64,000 nt of DNA from NCBI RefSeq assembly GCF_002943715.1, contig NZ_MQUA01000014.1, positions 1-64,000 of the forward strand. The letters are read 5' to 3'. The position numbers were made by a program, and so were the translations under genes. The DNA is from Polaribacter filamentus (GTDB taxonomy: Bacteria > Bacteroidota > Bacteroidia > Flavobacteriales > Flavobacteriaceae). Below the pieces are notes generated by a model, which saw only the letters and a program-made list of their open reading frames with translations, did not search any database and was not told the DNA's origin. Positions 19,499 through 39,418 of the stretch are shown piece by piece. How positions within the stretch are numbered: position 1 is the stretch's first letter; the number at the start of each line of letters is the position of its first letter.

Positions 19499-19501
19499 TT
19501 G
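19467..19501 (+). promoter_or_regulatory. Promoter of the GbsR-type regulator/efflux operon
   Basis: An exact -7 box TATCTTTG lies at 19494-19501, with a TTG 24 bp upstream (19467-19469), close to the TTG-N(17-23)-TAnnTTTG pattern. The regulator ATG is at 19550. Confidence 0.45.
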
Positions 19502-19549
19502 AAAAGAATTTTATACCAATCTAAAAATTGGGTGTATAACAGCATAAAA

Positions 19550-20046
19550 ATGAACGAAAACATTTGCAAAGAAAAGATGGCTTTGGTTGAAAAACTAGGA
19601 GTGCATTTAGAAAAGAGAGAACAGCTAGCGCCTGTTGCTGCGCGTATTTTATCCTATATAATTCTTACCGGTAAAAAAGGAACCACTTTTGAAGATATGG
19701 TGAGTATTCTTTTTGCGAGTAAAAGTACCATCTCTACACATCTGAATCATTTACAAGACTTAAAGAAAATTCAGTATTTCACAAAAACAGGCGATCGTAA
19801 AAAATACTTTGTGATCAATAAAGACATTATCATTCAACATGTTGACCAAATAATCAGCAATTGGAAAGAAGTGCGTGAATTACATCTAGAAATAAAAAAC
19901 TATCAAGAAAACGAAAACAATCAAAAATCGAAAATAAAGAAGAAAAATTCGATTTAAATTTTCACAATGAATATATAAAATTTATAAATGAAGCTTCTGC
20001 TTCTATAGAGGAGTTAAGAGTAAAAATAATAGACAATCAAAAATAA
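19550..20046 (+). pseudogene. GbsR/MarR-type transcriptional regulator with frameshifted C-terminal tail
   Basis: The ATG at 19550 opens a winged-helix regulator: NICKEKMALVEKLGVHLEK, LAPVAARILSYIILTGKKG, SKSTISTHLNHLQDLKKIQYF, TGDRKKYF. Its frame ends at a TAA at 19955-19957 after an A-rich stretch, giving 135 aa. In the next frame the sequence continues FDLNFHNEYIKFINEASASIEEL to a TAA at 20046, which is the tail normal for flavobacterial homologues. One missing A in the run at 19943-19947 (or another A-run nearby) would explain it. The DNA-binding part is intact; the tail may aid dimerisation. It directly precedes the RND efflux genes and is probably their local repressor. Confidence 0.72.
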
Positions 20047-28236: not shown

Positions 28237-28508
28237 AGAAAGCGTGTTAATTTTGGCTAAAGGTAATACTTAATAAACATGTTACTTTGTAAATTTATAT
28301 TCTTCTTTTAAATCTTAATATCAAAGAAAATACTTTTGATTTAGATCTATTTTAAAAAGTAGTTTTTTTGTTGCAGGAGATTCCATGCGGTTAAGAGATG
28401 GCTTAAAAACCCTGTTTCACCGAGAAAAAAATAGTGTTTATCTAAAAAATTTCTTTTTTATCTGCTTCTGCTCTTTTTTTGTGCTAAATAACTTTAAATT
28501 TGATACTT

Positions 28509-29165
28509 ATGAAAAGTAGAAACACAATTTTAGGAATTTGTTTAATACTATTAACTTCTTGCATAGTAAAATCTTTACATCCTTTTTACACCAAAGAAAC
28601 CATCACTTTTGATCAAAATTTTATTGGAGATTGGCAAGATTCTAAAAAAGGAAAATGGAAAGTTATTTCATTTAAAGAAGAAATAACAAAAGACAATCCT
28701 GTTGAAAAAATGGATAAAGAGGATCTAAAAATCTATAAAGAATATAAAAATAGCTATTATATTTTAAGAGAATATGAGGATAAAGAAGTTATTTATCTTG
28801 CGACTCCTTTTAAAATAAACAATCAAAAATTTTTAGATTTTTTCCCTTTAGATCATCAAGAAGGTGTAGATAATTTATTACAAAGTCATTCTATTTACAC
28901 ACATAGTTTGGTAAAATATGATGTTCAAAAAAACGGAGAAATAGAAATAAGATGGCTAGATGAGGATAAATTTCAAACCCTTTTTAAACAAAAAAAGATT
29001 AAAATAAGGCATGAAACTATTGGAATTTTAAATGAAAATTACTTGTTAACGGCAAGCTCTAAAGAATTACAAAAATTCATAGAAAAATATATGGCTTCTA
29101 ATGATGCTGAAAAATGGGAAACCTCTACGAAATTTACGTTAACTAAAGTAAATGCTACAAATTAA
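28509..29165 (+). CDS. Lipoprotein of unknown function, first gene of a LytS/LytTR unit
   Basis: ATG 28509 gives a 218-aa lipoprotein with lipobox LLTSC. The mature part begins with SLHPFYTKETITFDQNFIGDWQDSKKGKWKVI, a pattern seen in small envelope lipoproteins of Bacteroidota. The remainder is lysine- and glutamate-rich with no known domain. It overlaps the sensor kinase gene by 14 bp, so it could be a sensed or accessory component of that two-component system; this is inference from position. Confidence 0.7.
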   Translation: MKSRNTILGICLILLTSCIVKSLHPFYTKETITFDQNFIGDWQDSKKGKWKVISFKEEITKDNPVEKMDKEDLKIYKEYKNSYYILREYEDKEVIYLATPFKINNQKFLDFFPLDHQEGVDNLLQSHSIYTHSLVKYDVQKNGEIEIRWLDEDKFQTLFKQKKIKIRHETIGILNENYLLTASSKELQKFIEKYMASNDAEKWETSTKFTLTKVNATN

Positions 29166-30207
29166 ACATTTTTTAAAAAGAACAAATGCCCATAATATAC
29201 TGGTTTTTAACGCTGTATTATGGAGTTGTTCTTTTCTGATTCTTCTGTTTCTTTTTTCTGGAAGTTCATCACCTGCAAAAATCGATTATATTTATACCGC
29301 AAGTTTTATATTTACTTTAGTGGTTCCCGTTTGTATCAATTTATATTGGTTACTGCCTACATATCTTAAAAAGGAAAAGTATGTAATTTTTGGAATTCTG
29401 TTTATTCTAAACCTTATTGTATTTGCCCAGATAAATCCTTGGTTTTTTAATGTATTGGTGGATACTTTTTTTAAAGATTATTTCTTTATTTCGTATCACA
29501 ATAAAATAGAAATCTATTCTATTTTTGCAGTATTTTTTATCCTATCAGTACTCATAAAGCTTGCCGAAGATTGGGTCTATTTAAATGAATTTGAAAATAG
29601 AACACTTAAAATTCAGAATCAGCAGATAGAGAATCAACTGTATTATTTAAAAGGTCAGATTAATCCACATTTTTTATTCAATTCTTTAAACGTATTGTAT
29701 TCGCTTGCAATCGAAGAGAAAAAAGAAGTTACAAATGCCATTTTACAGTTATCCGATATTTTAAGATATGTTATTTATGATGTAAATGCAGCTCAAATAA
29801 CTATCAAAAAAGAAATTGAACTTCTTACCAATTACATCGAATTTGAAAAAAACAGGCATGTACAAAATTCAACTATTACATTTGATTATAAAGTTGATAA
29901 AAATCTAGAAATATATCCGATGTTATTATTGCCATTGCTAGAAAATAGTTTTAAACACGGATTGAAGAGTGGGGTAAAAAATCCTTATATTGATGTAAAA
30001 TTAATAGTCAAAAACAAAAAAATAGATTTTGTGATTTCGAATAATTTTAAAGAAATTACAAGTTATAATACAAAAGAGGAATACGGAATTGGTTTAAAAA
30101 ATATTCAAGAAAATTTAGCCATTATTTATCCTGATAAACATCTTTTTTCAATTGAAAATAGCCATACTATTTTTACTATAAGACTAACAATAGATATAGA
30201 AAAATGA
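29152..30207 (+). CDS. LytS-type sensor histidine kinase
   Basis: The 351-aa protein has four predicted membrane helices (residues 20-40, 47-68, 78-98, 120-140). These are followed by a His_kinase domain (PF06580 type) with the phospho-acceptor H173 in GQINPHFLFNSLN, and an ATPase part with LLLPLLENSFKHG (N-box) and YGIGLKNIQENL (G-box). It signals to the LytTR regulator encoded next, whose gene overlaps by 4 bp. There is no extracytoplasmic sensor domain of size. Confidence 0.92.
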   Translation: MLQIKHFLKRTNAHNILVFNAVLWSCSFLILLFLFSGSSSPAKIDYIYTASFIFTLVVPVCINLYWLLPTYLKKEKYVIFGILFILNLIVFAQINPWFFNVLVDTFFKDYFFISYHNKIEIYSIFAVFFILSVLIKLAEDWVYLNEFENRTLKIQNQQIENQLYYLKGQINPHFLFNSLNVLYSLAIEEKKEVTNAILQLSDILRYVIYDVNAAQITIKKEIELLTNYIEFEKNRHVQNSTITFDYKVDKNLEIYPMLLLPLLENSFKHGLKSGVKNPYIDVKLIVKNKKIDFVISNNFKEITSYNTKEEYGIGLKNIQENLAIIYPDKHLFSIENSHTIFTIRLTIDIEK

Positions 30208-30875
30208 ATATACGTTGCATAATAATTGATGATGAGCCTTCTTCGCAAAATGTTCTAAAATCATTTGTACATAAAATCGATTATTTAGAGTTGGTACAGG
30301 TTTGCAATAGTGCTTTAGAGGCTTTAGAATATTTAAAAAGCAACACGGTAGATTTGTTTTTTTTAGATATTAATATGCCGCAACTTTCTGGAATCGATTT
30401 TTATAAATCACTCAAAAATCCGCCAAAAGTAATTTTTACAACTGCTTATTCAGCTTATGCTTTAGAGGGTTTTGAAGTCGATGCCACAGATTATTTGTTA
30501 AAACCTTTTTCTTTTCATCGTTTTGTAAAAGCGGTTTCAAAAGTTAAAGATTTGAATGATGCTAAAATCGATTATATCATTGTAAAATCAGACAAAAAAT
30601 TACATCAGATAAAAATTGAAAAGATCTATTTTATAGAAGCTTTGGGAGATTATATTAAAATTCATTTAAAGAATACCTTTTTAGTAACCTATAAATCTCT
30701 AAAAATGATGCATACTTCGCTGCCAAAGTCTATTTTTAAACAAGTTCATAAATCGTTTATAATTAACAAAAATAAACTGCAATATATAGAAGGGAACATG
30801 GCAATCATTAACTCAAATAAAATACCTTTAGGACAAAAATATAAGAAAGAATTTATTGATCATTTTAATGCATAA
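30204..30875 (+). CDS. LytTR-family response regulator
   Basis: The 223-aa regulator has a receiver domain (residues 1-115) with DDEP at 9-12, acceptor D55 in FFLDINMP, T in VIFTTAYS and K in LLKPF. It is followed by a LytTR DNA-binding domain (125-223) with KIYFIEALGDYIKIHL and FKQVHKSFIINKNKL. It pairs with the overlapping LytS kinase. Targets are unknown. Confidence 0.94.
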   Translation: MNIRCIIIDDEPSSQNVLKSFVHKIDYLELVQVCNSALEALEYLKSNTVDLFFLDINMPQLSGIDFYKSLKNPPKVIFTTAYSAYALEGFEVDATDYLLKPFSFHRFVKAVSKVKDLNDAKIDYIIVKSDKKLHQIKIEKIYFIEALGDYIKIHLKNTFLVTYKSLKMMHTSLPKSIFKQVHKSFIINKNKLQYIEGNMAIINSNKIPLGQKYKKEFIDHFNA

Positions 30876-34140: not shown

Positions 34141-35493
34141 TTAGTTCAAATTCCTAAGAGTTTTAATTCTGATAGGTTCTGTATTAAAAAACTCTGAAAC
34201 AGCTATACTAAACATTCCGTTTGAAGGAAATTTCCTATAATCTTCATCATGATAGCCACCAATTAAATATAAATTTTCATTTAAAAAATGCATGTTAGCG
34301 TTGTTCAAATTTAAATCGATTTTATATTCTTTTAAAATATTTGTTTTAGGTTCAAATGTTATCATTTTGCCATCTTCTTGTAGGTAAATAAATTCAGTAT
34401 CCATAGTTATTGAAGGTTTTCTCATTCCTCTAAAAAGAGTTCCTTCATTTTTCCAAATACCTGTTTTTAGGTTAAATGATTCTATTTCTGATAAATTCTT
34501 TTTATTAAAACCACCAAATAAATATAATTTATCTTCAAAAACAATACCCGTAACTTCTTTTGCATTGGGCATTTTAGTAAGCAAATACCAATACCCCGTT
34601 TTTAAGTCAAAAAAATGAATATCATTAGAATATTTTATTACTCCGTTTTTATACTTCTTAATAGAACCACCAAAAACCAAAATTTTATCATCATAAAGTA
34701 CAGCGCCAAAATCTACTGCTTGATGTGGGTTTGTTTCATCTTTCTTTATCGATAAATCTTTTAATTCAACAAGCTCTATTTGATCTGCCAACAACTCTCT
34801 TGACTTCTTTTTAGATAGCGTTTTACCACCGATTAAAAGAACAGTATCCTGGTAAAATATTGCGTTGTGATAGGCTCTTTTTATAAGTTTATCTTTTTCA
34901 ATACTCCATTTTTTATCAATAATATCGTACGCTTGTATATCTCCTATATAATTATTAAAACTAATTGGTTTTGGTCTAGCTAAGCATTTCATTAATTCTT
35001 GTAAACTATTATATGGCAAACTAAGACATTCTTTATTTTTTTCGTGTTCACTAGAAACATCGCCGCCAAATACATAAATTTTATTCTTCTTTATAATTGA
35101 TCCGAAAGAATAAACCGCTTTAGGCATGTCTTGCAATTTATTAAAATCGATGCTACTTTTAAGTTGTTTTTTAGTGCTAATTTTTATCCCTTTTAGCTCT
35201 TCTTCTTTTTCATCAAGAAAAATTATTGTACTTGACATATCTTTCTTGTATAGAATTTCTAGATTGTTATATTTGAGATGAGAAATACTAATAGAAATAC
35301 TTTTTTTGCTTACTAAATCAAGAGAAAATGCTCCATTTTCGTCAGTATAAATGGCGGTATCAAGAAAAAAAATATGTGCTTTTTCTATTGGTTCTTTTGT
35401 AGAAGACGATAAAACTTTGAATGTAATTTTTTGTGAAAAACTAATTGATGAATACATTAAAAAACAAATTATGGTAAGATTTTTCATGTACAA
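34141..35493 (-). CDS. Secreted Kelch-repeat protein with carboxypeptidase-regulatory-like domain
   Basis: The 450-aa exported protein has a signal peptide ending SISFSQ. Residues 24-100 are a CarboxypepD_reg-like beta-sandwich (ITFKVLSSSTKEPIEKAHIFF, YTDENGAFSLDL, FLDEKEEEL), as found at the N-terminus of many Bacteroidota surface proteins. From about 130 comes a beta-propeller with Kelch blades marked by YVFGGD, LLIGGK, LVFGGS, LYLFGGF and LYLIGGY. It probably acts in the periplasm or at the cell surface as a binding or scaffold protein. A broken paralogue of its N-terminal domain lies just upstream. Met1 or Met3 may be the start. Confidence 0.82.
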   Translation of the reverse strand: MYMKNLTIICFLMYSSISFSQKITFKVLSSSTKEPIEKAHIFFLDTAIYTDENGAFSLDLVSKKSISISISHLKYNNLEILYKKDMSSTIIFLDEKEEELKGIKISTKKQLKSSIDFNKLQDMPKAVYSFGSIIKKNKIYVFGGDVSSEHEKNKECLSLPYNSLQELMKCLARPKPISFNNYIGDIQAYDIIDKKWSIEKDKLIKRAYHNAIFYQDTVLLIGGKTLSKKKSRELLADQIELVELKDLSIKKDETNPHQAVDFGAVLYDDKILVFGGSIKKYKNGVIKYSNDIHFFDLKTGYWYLLTKMPNAKEVTGIVFEDKLYLFGGFNKKNLSEIESFNLKTGIWKNEGTLFRGMRKPSITMDTEFIYLQEDGKMITFEPKTNILKEYKIDLNLNNANMHFLNENLYLIGGYHDEDYRKFPSNGMFSIAVSEFFNTEPIRIKTLRNLN

Positions 35494-35562: not shown

Positions 35563-35850
35563 CTTAACCATTTGAATGCTCTCTAAAGTTTCTTGTTTTT
35601 CTGTAAGAAATATAATTAAAGACATGTTGCTTTTACTGTATAAGACTTATTTCATTTTATATTTAAGATGGGTAAGAGAAAAAGTAATACTATCTAATTT
35701 CTTTAACATAAAAGAGAACTCACCTTTTTCGTTTGTATAGGTTGTTTTATTTATAAAAAAAATGTGCGCTTTTACAATAGGTGCATTCGTTTAAAAATCT
35801 AAAACTTTTAATGTTATTTTTTGCGAAAAACAGTTAATAGAAAAAAGTGA
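35563..35850 (-). pseudogene. Remnant of a paralogue of the Kelch-protein N-terminal domain
   Basis: Reading the minus strand gives SINCFSQKITLKVLDF, stop, TNAPIVKAHIFFINKTTYT, NEKGEFSF, FSLTHLKYKMK, stop, SNMSLIIFLTEKQETLESI. These align segment by segment with the intact neighbour (SFSQKITFKVL, EPIEKAHIFFLDTAIYT, DENGAFSL, ISHLKYNN, STIIFLDEKEEEL). Two in-frame stops, loss of the signal peptide start and absence of the propeller part mark it as a decayed duplicate. Confidence 0.85.
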
Positions 35851-36090: not shown

Positions 36091-37611
36091 ATGAAGAATT
36101 ATTTAAACTTGTTTTTTACTCTTTTTTTTGCTGCTACAGCTAGCACTTTACTTATAAGTTGTGAAGTAGAACATGGAAAAGATGGTATTAATGGAATTGA
36201 TGGGAATAATGGAATTGATGGCGATAATGGGGTTAATGGAAAAGATGCTTCTGTCTTTTTAGCTGCATCAAAATCACCTAATCTATTAAAAGTGACCGGT
36301 GATTTTGTAAACTTAAAAATCACACCAATTTTAACTTCTGAGGATGTGATACCAAACACTCCTGATTTTGTATACGGATCTATGGCAGATGGCGCTGGCT
36401 TAATTAATAATGGAGATGACACCTATACTTTAATTAATAATATCGAAGCAGACTATTCTATTGCTCGTATTTTGTTAAACAAAAATTTAAGACCTTTTCA
36501 TGGAGAATATATCTTAAACGCAACCGCTACTGCTGAAACAGCGCAATGTTCAGGAACTTTAATTAGTCCTGAAGAACATGGATTTGGCCCTTTATATTTA
36601 TCGGGTGGTGAATGGGGTGGTGCATCAAAAGGTGTATTTGTTTTAGATCCTTCAAAAAGCACTAATGATGCTAGTTCGGGAGAATTATTACCTGCCCTAG
36701 GACAGTGGTCTACTGAAAATGCTGTACCTATTGGAAAAGATGCTTATGCCGATAAAACAGTTGTATTTATTGGAGATGATCATGCCGACAACTCCGTTCC
36801 TTCTGGTCAATTAGGTATGTATGTTGGAAATAGAGGTGATTTAAATAGCGGTAAATTGTATGGTTTAAAAGTAACTACTGCAGGCGTTGATTTTGAAGTA
36901 GATATGCTTGAAGGATCCACCTATAATGCTGAATTTGTTGAATTAGCTGAAAGAGAAATTACCGCATTAGATACCGAAGCCAAAACCAAAGGTGTTATGG
37001 GGTTTTCTAGGTTAGAGGACATTGATTGGAGAAGAGGGACTGCGGCAAACCAAAGAGAAATATATTTCTGTGTTACAGGACGCGATAAACCAGATTTAAT
37101 TGGTAAAGGAAGTGTTTTAGGTCGTGTATACAAAGTTACTTTAAATGAGTCGGATCCTACAGGAGCTTGTAAAATTACCTGTGTGTTAGATGGTGATAAA
37201 ATTGGTGGTAAAGCGCAAGGATTTCATTCTCCTGATAATATTTTAGTCACAGAAAACTATGCCTATATTCAAGAAGACCCAAACGGCTATTTGGATACTA
37301 CTGTTAATGGATACGCTAAACTATATCAATATAACTTAACAACTGGAGAGATAAAAACGGTTTTAGAATGCGACCAAAATAGAGCCGCTGGTTTAGGCTA
37401 TGGTAAAACGACAAGTAGATGGGAAATTACAGGTATGATTGATGTAACAGATATTGTTAACAATGGTAGTAACAATTTCTTATTAATTACTCAAAACCAT
37501 GGATGGGAACCTGCTGATGGAACTTCTTTTACCGACCCAAAAGCAAATGCTAACTTAGCAAATAGAAAGGAAGGTTCTATGCTATACTTAATCAAAGGAC
37601 TAGAAAGATAA
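36091..37611 (+). CDS. PhoX-like (DUF839) surface lipoprotein with collagen-like linker
   Basis: The 506-aa lipoprotein has a signal peptide with lipobox-like LISC, then EVEH, then eight G-x-x triplets (GKDGINGIDGNN and on to GKD), a short collagen-like linker. The main domain (residues 60-500) matches the PhoX/DUF839 beta-propeller pattern: DFVYGSMADGAG, YSIARILLN, GVMGFSRLEDIDWRRG, SVLGRVYKVTL and SPDNILVTENYAYIQEDPNGY. PhoX enzymes are Ca/Fe-dependent phosphatases, but activity here is not assured. It is followed 13 bp later by the interrupted di-heme peroxidase gene, probably in the same operon. Confidence 0.75.
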   Translation: MKNYLNLFFTLFFAATASTLLISCEVEHGKDGINGIDGNNGIDGDNGVNGKDASVFLAASKSPNLLKVTGDFVNLKITPILTSEDVIPNTPDFVYGSMADGAGLINNGDDTYTLINNIEADYSIARILLNKNLRPFHGEYILNATATAETAQCSGTLISPEEHGFGPLYLSGGEWGGASKGVFVLDPSKSTNDASSGELLPALGQWSTENAVPIGKDAYADKTVVFIGDDHADNSVPSGQLGMYVGNRGDLNSGKLYGLKVTTAGVDFEVDMLEGSTYNAEFVELAEREITALDTEAKTKGVMGFSRLEDIDWRRGTAANQREIYFCVTGRDKPDLIGKGSVLGRVYKVTLNESDPTGACKITCVLDGDKIGGKAQGFHSPDNILVTENYAYIQEDPNGYLDTTVNGYAKLYQYNLTTGEIKTVLECDQNRAAGLGYGKTTSRWEITGMIDVTDIVNNGSNNFLLITQNHGWEPADGTSFTDPKANANLANRKEGSMLYLIKGLER

Positions 37612-37624
37612 TTTAAAAAACATC

Positions 37625-39418
37625 ATGAATAACAACTTATTTATGAAAGCGAAGGCATATACTTTTTGTATGTGTCTTTTGCTTTTAAGCACATTAGGCT
37701 GTGAAAAAGAAGAAAAAATAACCACTATTTCTTCCACAAACAAAAAAATAAAAACATTTTATACTTCAGAATTAAACAGCTGTATTACCCTACTCGATTC
37801 AATTTCTATTTTAAAAAAGATAGAAGATAATATTTCGCTGTATATAAAAGCTCGAAAACACTTTAAAAAGATAGAGCCTATTTTAGCTTCAATAGATAAA
37901 AACAACTACAAATCTTTAAACGCTCCTAATATTTTACAAGTTCAGGAAGAAGATTTAACCGATATTAAAATTAGAAACCCTTTTGGTTTTCAAGTGATTG
38001 AAGAATTACTACACGAATCAAAAATTGATACATTACAACTACAACGCACGCTGTTAATTACGAGTAGTAGATTAAAGCTAATTAAAAAAAATGCCTATAT
38101 TAATTTAAAAGATTATCATATTATTTGGCTCGTTAGAGACCAGATAATTAGAATTGCTACCACGGGTATTACAGGTTTCGATTCACCAGTTTTAGGCACA
38201 TCTTTACTTGAAAGTCAATATACTTATAAAACACTCATAACTCTTATTGATTTTTTTTAGGATAAATTTACGTCTAAAGAAGTTTACGCTACTTTAATAG
38301 CGTCTTTTCAAAATGCAATTAAAGTATTAGATCACGATTTTGATAGTTTTGATCGCTACACTTTTATCAAAGAACATACCGATAAACAATTAAAATTATT
38401 AATTGAAACCCAAGAAGATTGGAAGGTTACATTTCCTTTTGAAATGGCTATATCAAATAATGCGACGGCTCTTTTTAGTCCAAATGCAATTAATGTATTC
38501 TATTTTACGGATCATAAAAGTGATACCACGCATTTAAAGCAAAAAGAATTGTTCGGAAAGGAATTATTTAATGATAAAACACTTTCTAAAAATTATACGA
38601 TGGCGTGTGCAAGTTGTCATATTAAAGATTTGGCGTTTACAGATGGTGAAAAAACGTTTAATAGCCGACAAGTAAGGAATAGTCCAACCTTAACATACGC
38701 CGCTTATCAACAATCCTTTTTTATGGATGCGCGCACGGGAAGCTTAGAAGGGCAAATAGTGGGTGTTGCGGACAACCACAACGAATTTAACCTACCTATG
38801 GATTCTATTGTTAACCGAGTTAAAAAGAATCCAAAATATAAACGCTTGTTAGCTTCTTTATATGGATCTAAAAAATTAGATTTTAATATTAGACATGCCA
38901 TTGCATCGTATATCAGAAAACTAAGTCCGTTTAATTCTAAGTTCGATAATAACATCAATAAAAAAGAAAATACCTTAACCAATCAAGAAAAAAAGGGTTT
39001 TAATTTATTTATGGGAAAAGCAGTATGTGCCACTTGTCATTTTCCTCCATTATTTAACGGAACTGTGCCTCCTAATTTCATGGATACCGAATTAGAACTA
39101 ATTGGTGTTCCTGAAAAAAACGATACAATTAATGCTGTAATTAGCACCGATCCTGGTCGATATAATATATTTCAAACCAAAGAAAGAAAAGGATTTTTTA
39201 AAACACCTACTGTTAGAAACATTGGTAAAACAGCCCCTTATATGCACAATGGCGTCTATAAAAACTTAGAAGCAGTGCTAGATTTTTACAATCGCGGCGG
39301 TGGAAAGGGTATCGGAATTTATGAAGAATACCAAACCTTGCCTTTTGATGAATTAAATTTAACTAAAGAAGAACAAAATATGATTATTGCTTTTATGAAA
39401 ACACTCACAGATCAGTAA
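37625..39418 (+). pseudogene. Di-heme cytochrome c peroxidase-type lipoprotein interrupted by an in-frame TAG
   Basis: Two open segments in the same frame, 37625-38260 and 38261-39418, are separated only by TAG at 38258-38260; the 60 codons between that stop and the next Met are open and protein-like. The first part is a lipoprotein (lipobox TLGC) with a helical imelysin-like region: YIKARKHFKKIEPIL, LNAPNI, NPFGFQVIEELL. The second has heme-binding CASCH and CATCH, AFTDG, FKTPTVRNIGKTAPYMHNG and VLDFYNRGG, typical of MauG/CcpA-type di-heme peroxidases. Flavobacterial homologues carry both parts in one chain of about 600 aa. Unless the TAG is read through or is a sequence error, the product is a truncated lipoprotein without hemes. 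Confidence 0.8.

Follow-up and report, generated by a model that had tools for sequence, protein, structure and literature searches.

An in-frame TAG in a gene for a di-heme lipoprotein

The window analysed here is a stretch of 64,000 nt of Polaribacter filamentus (contig NZ_MQUA01000014.1, positions 1 to 64,000 of the forward strand), and it contains a gene that appears to be cut in two. The reading frame begins at an ATG (37625), runs for 211 codons to a TAG (38258–38260), and continues in the same frame to a TAA (39416–39418), giving 597 codons in total and agreeing with the length of about 597 aa, stop disregarded, given in a preliminary description of the locus. The question is whether this TAG is a true mutation, an error in the assembled sequence, or a codon that the cell reads through or works around. 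The reading we lean towards, at slightly better than an even chance, is that an ancestral single gene has recently acquired a real nonsense mutation.

The read-through product (597 aa) opens with a lipoprotein-type signal that includes Cys26, followed by a helical domain and then by a CCP_MauG domain carrying two CxxCH sites, which is the order of parts first described for it (lipobox, helical region, two CxxCH sites). The features of the gene and its upstream neighbour are as follows.

36091..37611, + strand: PhoX-like lipoprotein with collagen-like GxDG repeats, 506 aa, with 13 bases between its end and the ATG of the split gene
37625..38260, + strand: 5′ part of the split gene, 211 aa, covering the lipoprotein signal and the greater part of the imelysin-like helical domain up to the TAG
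37700..37702, + strand: codon of the lipobox-type cysteine (Cys26), invariant in a 21-row protein alignment
38251..38258, + strand: run of eight T (T8), read from the sequence, the eighth T being the first base of the TAG
38258..38260, + strand: in-frame TAG, codon 212; all 66 relatives of the final alignment have a sense codon here (E, K, Q, R, A, T or S)
38261..39418, + strand: 3′ part in the same frame, with the last two imelysin-like helices and a CCP_MauG/MbnH-type di-heme domain
38606..38620, + strand: first heme site, CASCH, residues 328–332; C328, C331 and H332 invariant (21 rows)
38783..38785, + strand: codon of Glu387, aligned with MauG chain position 113; invariant (21 rows)
39026..39040, + strand: second heme site, CATCH, residues 468–472; C468, C471 and H472 invariant (21 rows)
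39287..39289, + strand: codon of Tyr555, aligned with MauG chain position 294; invariant (21 rows)

Domains of the intact protein

The protein alignment of the split gene (21 rows) took in 20 of 29 relatives from named genomes. The C-terminal domain matches PF03150 (CCP_MauG) over residues 306–448 with 126.4 bits, against a curated cut-off of 25.6, and both CxxCH sites are invariant in the alignment. Its best PDB profile relatives are 6e1c (MauG-like, 2e-40), followed by classical di-heme peroxidases and MauG. The scores against the NCBIfam models for MauG (equivalog TIGR03791, 145 vs 444 bits) and MbnH (TIGR04039, 182 vs 363 bits) lie far below the respective cut-offs, and the protein is therefore called neither. 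It shares with both MauG and MbnH (6e1c) a di-heme domain in which the MauG Tyr and Glu positions are conserved, and differs from them in these scores, in its extra N-terminal domain and in having a PhoX-like partner. The invariant Tyr555 and Glu387 correspond to MauG positions 294 and 113, the heme-ligand Tyr and the catalytic Glu of that enzyme. Judged by its sequence, the domain qualifies as MauG/MbnH-type, the predicted Tyr ligand of the six-coordinate heme and the catalytic Glu both being present. The Tyr-His heme ligation of MauG and the effect of its Y294H change are described in the available portion of PMC6405878.

An AlphaFold2 model built from the 21 rows has a mean pLDDT of 68 and a pTM of 0.70; most of the N-terminal domain is confident (pLDDT mostly 84–98, with weak patches at 101–120 and 181–190) and the surroundings of the hemes are poor. 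Residues of about 32–274 in the model match EfeO, Algp7, EfeM and the imelysin-like 3pf0, with EfeO/imelysin relatives taking ranks 1–7. The fit is Z 16.1 to 7wgu (226 residues, 3.3 Å) and Z 14.7 to 3pf0 (224 residues, 2.7 Å), to be read against the Z of about 13–14 that helical bundles can reach through common arrangement alone. No Pfam imelysin match was listed for any of the 21 aligned rows, and it was the fold comparison that revealed the relationship. The earlier label ‘imelysin-like’ is thus upheld for the fold of the modelled N-terminal domain and finds no echo in Pfam sequence matching. Members of the imelysin-like/EfeO superfamily (7wgu, 3at7, 7q1g, 3pf0) share with the window protein the fold of residues about 32–274 (Z 12–16) and a lipoprotein-type signal; unlike their GxHxxE motif, it has G-F-Q-x-x-E, with G121, Q123 and E126 invariant in the 21 rows and Gln standing where that motif has His. 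Among imelysin-like proteins, the available part of PMC3143127 distinguishes a variant family with GxxxxE, and it also reports fusions of imelysin-like domains to peroxidase domains of the EfeB-like kind. The peroxidase domain of the window protein is of the PF03150 type, whereas the fusions in that part of PMC3143127 are of the DUF1111 or EfeB type.

Distribution of the stop among relatives

Homologous loci were chosen for matching nearly the whole span and aligned (48 loci, 19 from the genus and 29 from named genomes; L005 and L048 apparently represent the same genome). All 48 are uninterrupted single frames; that the two parts belong to a single gene is thus beyond chance, and the original view that the codons on either side of the TAG read as one protein is borne out. 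In the genus, 61 of 166 genomes have a match at E ≤ 1e-80, and an internal stop occurs only in the genome of the window, the 60 others being stop-free. The same holds for a sample of the family, where 52 of 397 genomes match at E ≤ 1e-120 and the 51 others are stop-free; one genome (G151) is present in both samples. A TAA in a paralogue in G037, considered as a second internal stop, lies upstream of its start. Among the full-length copies examined, the stop, as sequenced, is private to this genome.

Across the final alignment (66 relatives), the stop position is occupied by E (27), K (25), Q (5), R (3), A (3), T (2) and S (1). Gln or Lys had been suggested as the ancestral residue; both do occur there, and it is Glu that is commonest. 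Five distant loci (L017–L021), which have I, I, I, L and K at this column, were left out of the column count and of the conservation count given below. One of them, L021 (G038), forms with L183 (G037) and L184 (G034) a distant paralogue group of the imelysin-fold/di-heme protein, at 35–36% identity.

A looser search of the genus, reaching below the E ≤ 1e-80 cut-off of the main one, found a decayed remnant of the di-heme gene in G048 (L025, G048:C42:1699–2103), consisting of pieces of residues 377–597 in two frames with three stops. Judging from this sequence, decay has overtaken a copy of the gene elsewhere in the genus, so loss does occur there, and this moved our assessment slightly towards a real mutation and away from a base error.

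Constraint on either side of the stop

In the closest relative, G065, the gene is uninterrupted and 80% identical, and the two genomes are syntenic over about 10–64 kb of the window. Replacement of the gene pair by horizontal transfer, suggested by the pair resembling Lacinutrix/Winogradskyella more closely than it does most members of the genus, is an unneeded explanation, judging from the syntenic pair that G065 carries at 80%. The dN/dS ratio against G065 (Nei-Gojobori) is 0.164 for codons 1–211 and 0.140 for codons 213–597, and for 41 other genes of the window the median is 0.150 (range 0.048–0.443). At columns that are at least 97% conserved (154 in total), the window protein deviates at none of the 38 before the stop and at none of the 116 after it. 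When changes were polarised with 13 close outgroups, 11 fell on the window lineage and 15 on that of G065 in the C-terminal half, and 6 and 13, respectively, in the N-terminal half; these counts omit 58 ambiguous differences and 18 that fit neither lineage (both halves together). The unconstrained share of the window branch is at most 8.3% (one-sided 95%; C-terminal half, neutral rate 1/0.14), a bound that assumes equal branch lengths and omits ambiguous sites.

By these sequence comparisons, both halves are equally constrained up to near the present. Equal constraint, and the absence of deviation at near-invariant positions, imply that the stop is young, or is not real, or is of no consequence. 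On the first of these, a nonsense codon would have arisen, too recently for decay to be visible, in a gene whose exported lipoprotein product combines an imelysin-fold domain with a MauG/MbnH-type di-heme domain.

Nonsense mutation or base error

The main competing explanation, to which we give somewhat less than an even chance, is that the TAG is a base error of the consensus at the end of the T8 run, and that the gene of the strain is intact and ordinary. The lack of visible decay fits such an error as well as it fits a young mutation, and the T of the stop is the last of the run. The assembly itself was put to the test. A 404-kb portion of the contig carrying the window was compared with the ORFs of G065 and, likewise, with those of G047 (matches at 60% or more). 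In the genome of the window, 8 of 109 matched ORFs were flagged against G065 and 5 of 58 against G047; the control comparisons gave fewer, with 1/108 and 2/79 in G065, and 1/59 and 1/58 in G047. Nucleotide alignments with G065 or G047 then placed single-base deletions at six sites in five genes of the contig (the labels TPR-like, kinase-like and MarR-like were given by eye or from a weak match).

19499–20040 of the window: MarR-like gene lacking one base near 19.92 kb that G065 has, with a shift to another frame for the C-terminal ~44 residues
G000:C14, about 66.5–69.9 kb: L066, two single-base deletions near 66.6–66.8 kb
88.3–90.1 kb: L095, TPR-like gene, single-base deletion at 89.2 kb
136.1–136.8 kb: L150, Pth, single-base deletion at 136.5 kb
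300.3–301.2 kb: L159, kinase-like gene, single-base deletion at 301 kb

Five of the six sites are in or beside runs of A or T. Pth is indispensable in bacteria that have been well studied, and the only pth gene that a search of the whole genome turned up is in two halves. Taken as sequence evidence, these single-base deletions in conserved genes are very probably consensus errors, the assembly thus carrying base errors, and the frame break of the MarR-like gene is probably one of them. Four further rows (102296 and 289673 in the genome of the window, 199456 in G065 and 50773 in G047) stand simply as flags of the ORF comparison. Two others in the window's genome look like real remnants and were left out of the error count, namely row 113757, where the C-terminus of the relative is not continued, and row 124949, where the first 195 residues are absent and there are two length differences. 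In G065, row 214926 looks, from the listing, like a tandem copy that confused the test. The listed contamination of the genome is 5.96%, to which split marker genes may, at a guess, contribute in part.

Against an error at the TAG, all six demonstrated sites are changes of length, whereas the TAG is a substitution, and setting the T run to any length from 6 to 10 never opens the frame. Random substitutions in the ORFs of the window make a stop in 5.45% of cases, so that few nonsense codons are expected from miscalled bases. In the available part of PMC8011154 (Tables 1 and 2, long-read polishing), the number of mismatches lies anywhere between a few percent of the number of indels and about four times that number, and the prior for a substitution error is correspondingly wide.

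A simple homopolymer indel at the T8 was rejected because run lengths of 6–10 give only ORFs of 211–224 aa, and phase variation by slippage falls for the same reason. The preliminary description was right in calling the disruption a substitution and not a homopolymer indel, even though the TAG touches the T8 run. Its further argument, that a sequence error is less likely here than in other broken genes, is weakened by the single-base deletions in five genes of the same contig, and by the T run that abuts the stop. A recent, real nonsense mutation remains the reading that we marginally prefer. Either way, the nonsense codon, real or miscalled, stands in an otherwise constrained gene of an already known pair. 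The stop itself is ordinary, and ‘broken’ genes on this contig should not be read as biology without the reads.

Readthrough and reinitiation

The full constraint on the downstream half would also be explained if the TAG were read through, by suppression or by a programmed device, to give a low level of full-length enzyme. We consider this very improbable. TAG is a normal stop in this genome, ending 7 of 56 ORFs in the window, and RF1 is intact (a TAG in the RF1 match, which could be taken for an internal stop, lies upstream of the start Met). No tRNA with a CTA anticodon is present among the 37 tRNA genes found (Rfam model, anticodons read with ARAGORN), and a motif search for a CTA-tRNA gave four hits, none of which is a tRNA gene. 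A programmed device would be expected to have a conserved stop or a dedicated decoding tRNA; the stop occurs in one genome among full-length copies and in no other full-length relative, and the 37 tRNAs include none for it.

Even less probable is a split of the locus into two functional genes, one for an imelysin-like lipoprotein and the other for a di-heme protein with a start of its own at Met 38444. In its favour, the ORF 38444–39418 is open (324 aa) and holds both heme sites. Against it, no full-length relative is split, Met 38444 belongs to the interior of the intact protein, in a segment conserved among the relatives, and in the model two helices of the imelysin-like domain are missing from the stub. 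Nor does a signal peptide follow Met 38444 when the sequence is read by eye, as first described. Heme attachment takes place outside the cytoplasm, so in a product without a signal peptide it would fail.

Predicted effect of a real stop

If the base is right, translation would end after 211 aa. The product would be a lipoprotein stub that has neither the last two helices of its first domain nor either heme; in the AlphaFold2 model, the 5′ part accounts for helices at residues 37–210, and the first 211 residues are without the two helices at 218–235 and 244–266. The strain would then be null for the di-heme activity. A suppressor tRNA was not seen among the tRNA genes found, RF1 is intact, changes in the T run give no rescue, the stub is short of helices and there is no signal at 38444, which together imply that a real TAG would be a null allele with a non-functional product.

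The PhoX-like partner

Beside the split gene, the PhoX-like gene is intact and constrained (dN/dS 0.098 against G065, one of the 41 other genes compared above). In 70 of 71 loci the partner is encoded directly upstream and in the same orientation; the one locus that departs from this is the distant L021, in whose fetched flank no PhoX-like gene was detected. The intergenic gap, estimated from BLAST ends, is less than 25 bases in 64 of the 70, and the two genes are probably co-transcribed. Partner proteins from 16 of the 29 named loci were included in a 17-row alignment, of which 12 match PF05787 (PhoX) at E up to 1 (best 2e-13), the window protein being unmatched, and a PF05787 search of the window's own genome gave no match at E 0.001. 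The PhoX identity of the partner is accordingly drawn from those 12 of 17 aligned members and not from the window protein. Repeats of the GxDG type, of varying length, follow the lipobox of the partner in most aligned relatives.

A similar arrangement occurs in Flavobacterium (Fjoh_2478/Fjoh_2477), where a gene for a PhoX-like lipoprotein lies beside a MauG-like PF03150 gene; the likeness lies in the arrangement of the genes. According to the available portions of PMC8812569 and PMC8115612, the two Flavobacterium genes form an operon, both phoX and the MauG-like gene are raised when phosphate is depleted, and a possible dependence of PhoX on the MauG-like protein is proposed. The window pair differs in having a stop, and those portions do not mention an imelysin-like domain for Flavobacterium. 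No description of an imelysin-fold/di-heme fusion beside PhoX was found in the open-licence literature.

The normal job of the enzyme may be to mature, or otherwise to serve, its PhoX-like partner. All five tryptophans of the partner (W175, W206, W313, W444 and W472) are invariant in the 17-row alignment, which fits, without showing, a MauG-type modification. A more specific proposal, which we regard as unlikely, is that each imelysin-fold/MauG-type lipoprotein serves solely to mature the flavobacterial PhoX-like lipoprotein encoded next to it, oxidising at least one of the five Trp to a protein-derived cofactor; this strain would then be a natural knock-out of the maturase, very recent in origin, in which the target is still made. 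The pair is of more interest than the stop, since it bears on the activation of flavobacterial PhoX and on the recycling of organic phosphorus.

Other features of the window

At 28500–30875 there are three ORFs without a full-length counterpart in the syntenic region of G065, possibly a lineage-specific insertion. A kelch/CarbopepD_reg gene lies at 34141–35493, and in G047 the kelch gene is on the other side of the PhoX-like/di-heme pair. A degraded second copy of the start of the kelch gene is present at 35569–35847 on the − strand (53% to the G047 protein, 2 stops); it looks like a real remnant and was kept apart from the errors counted above.
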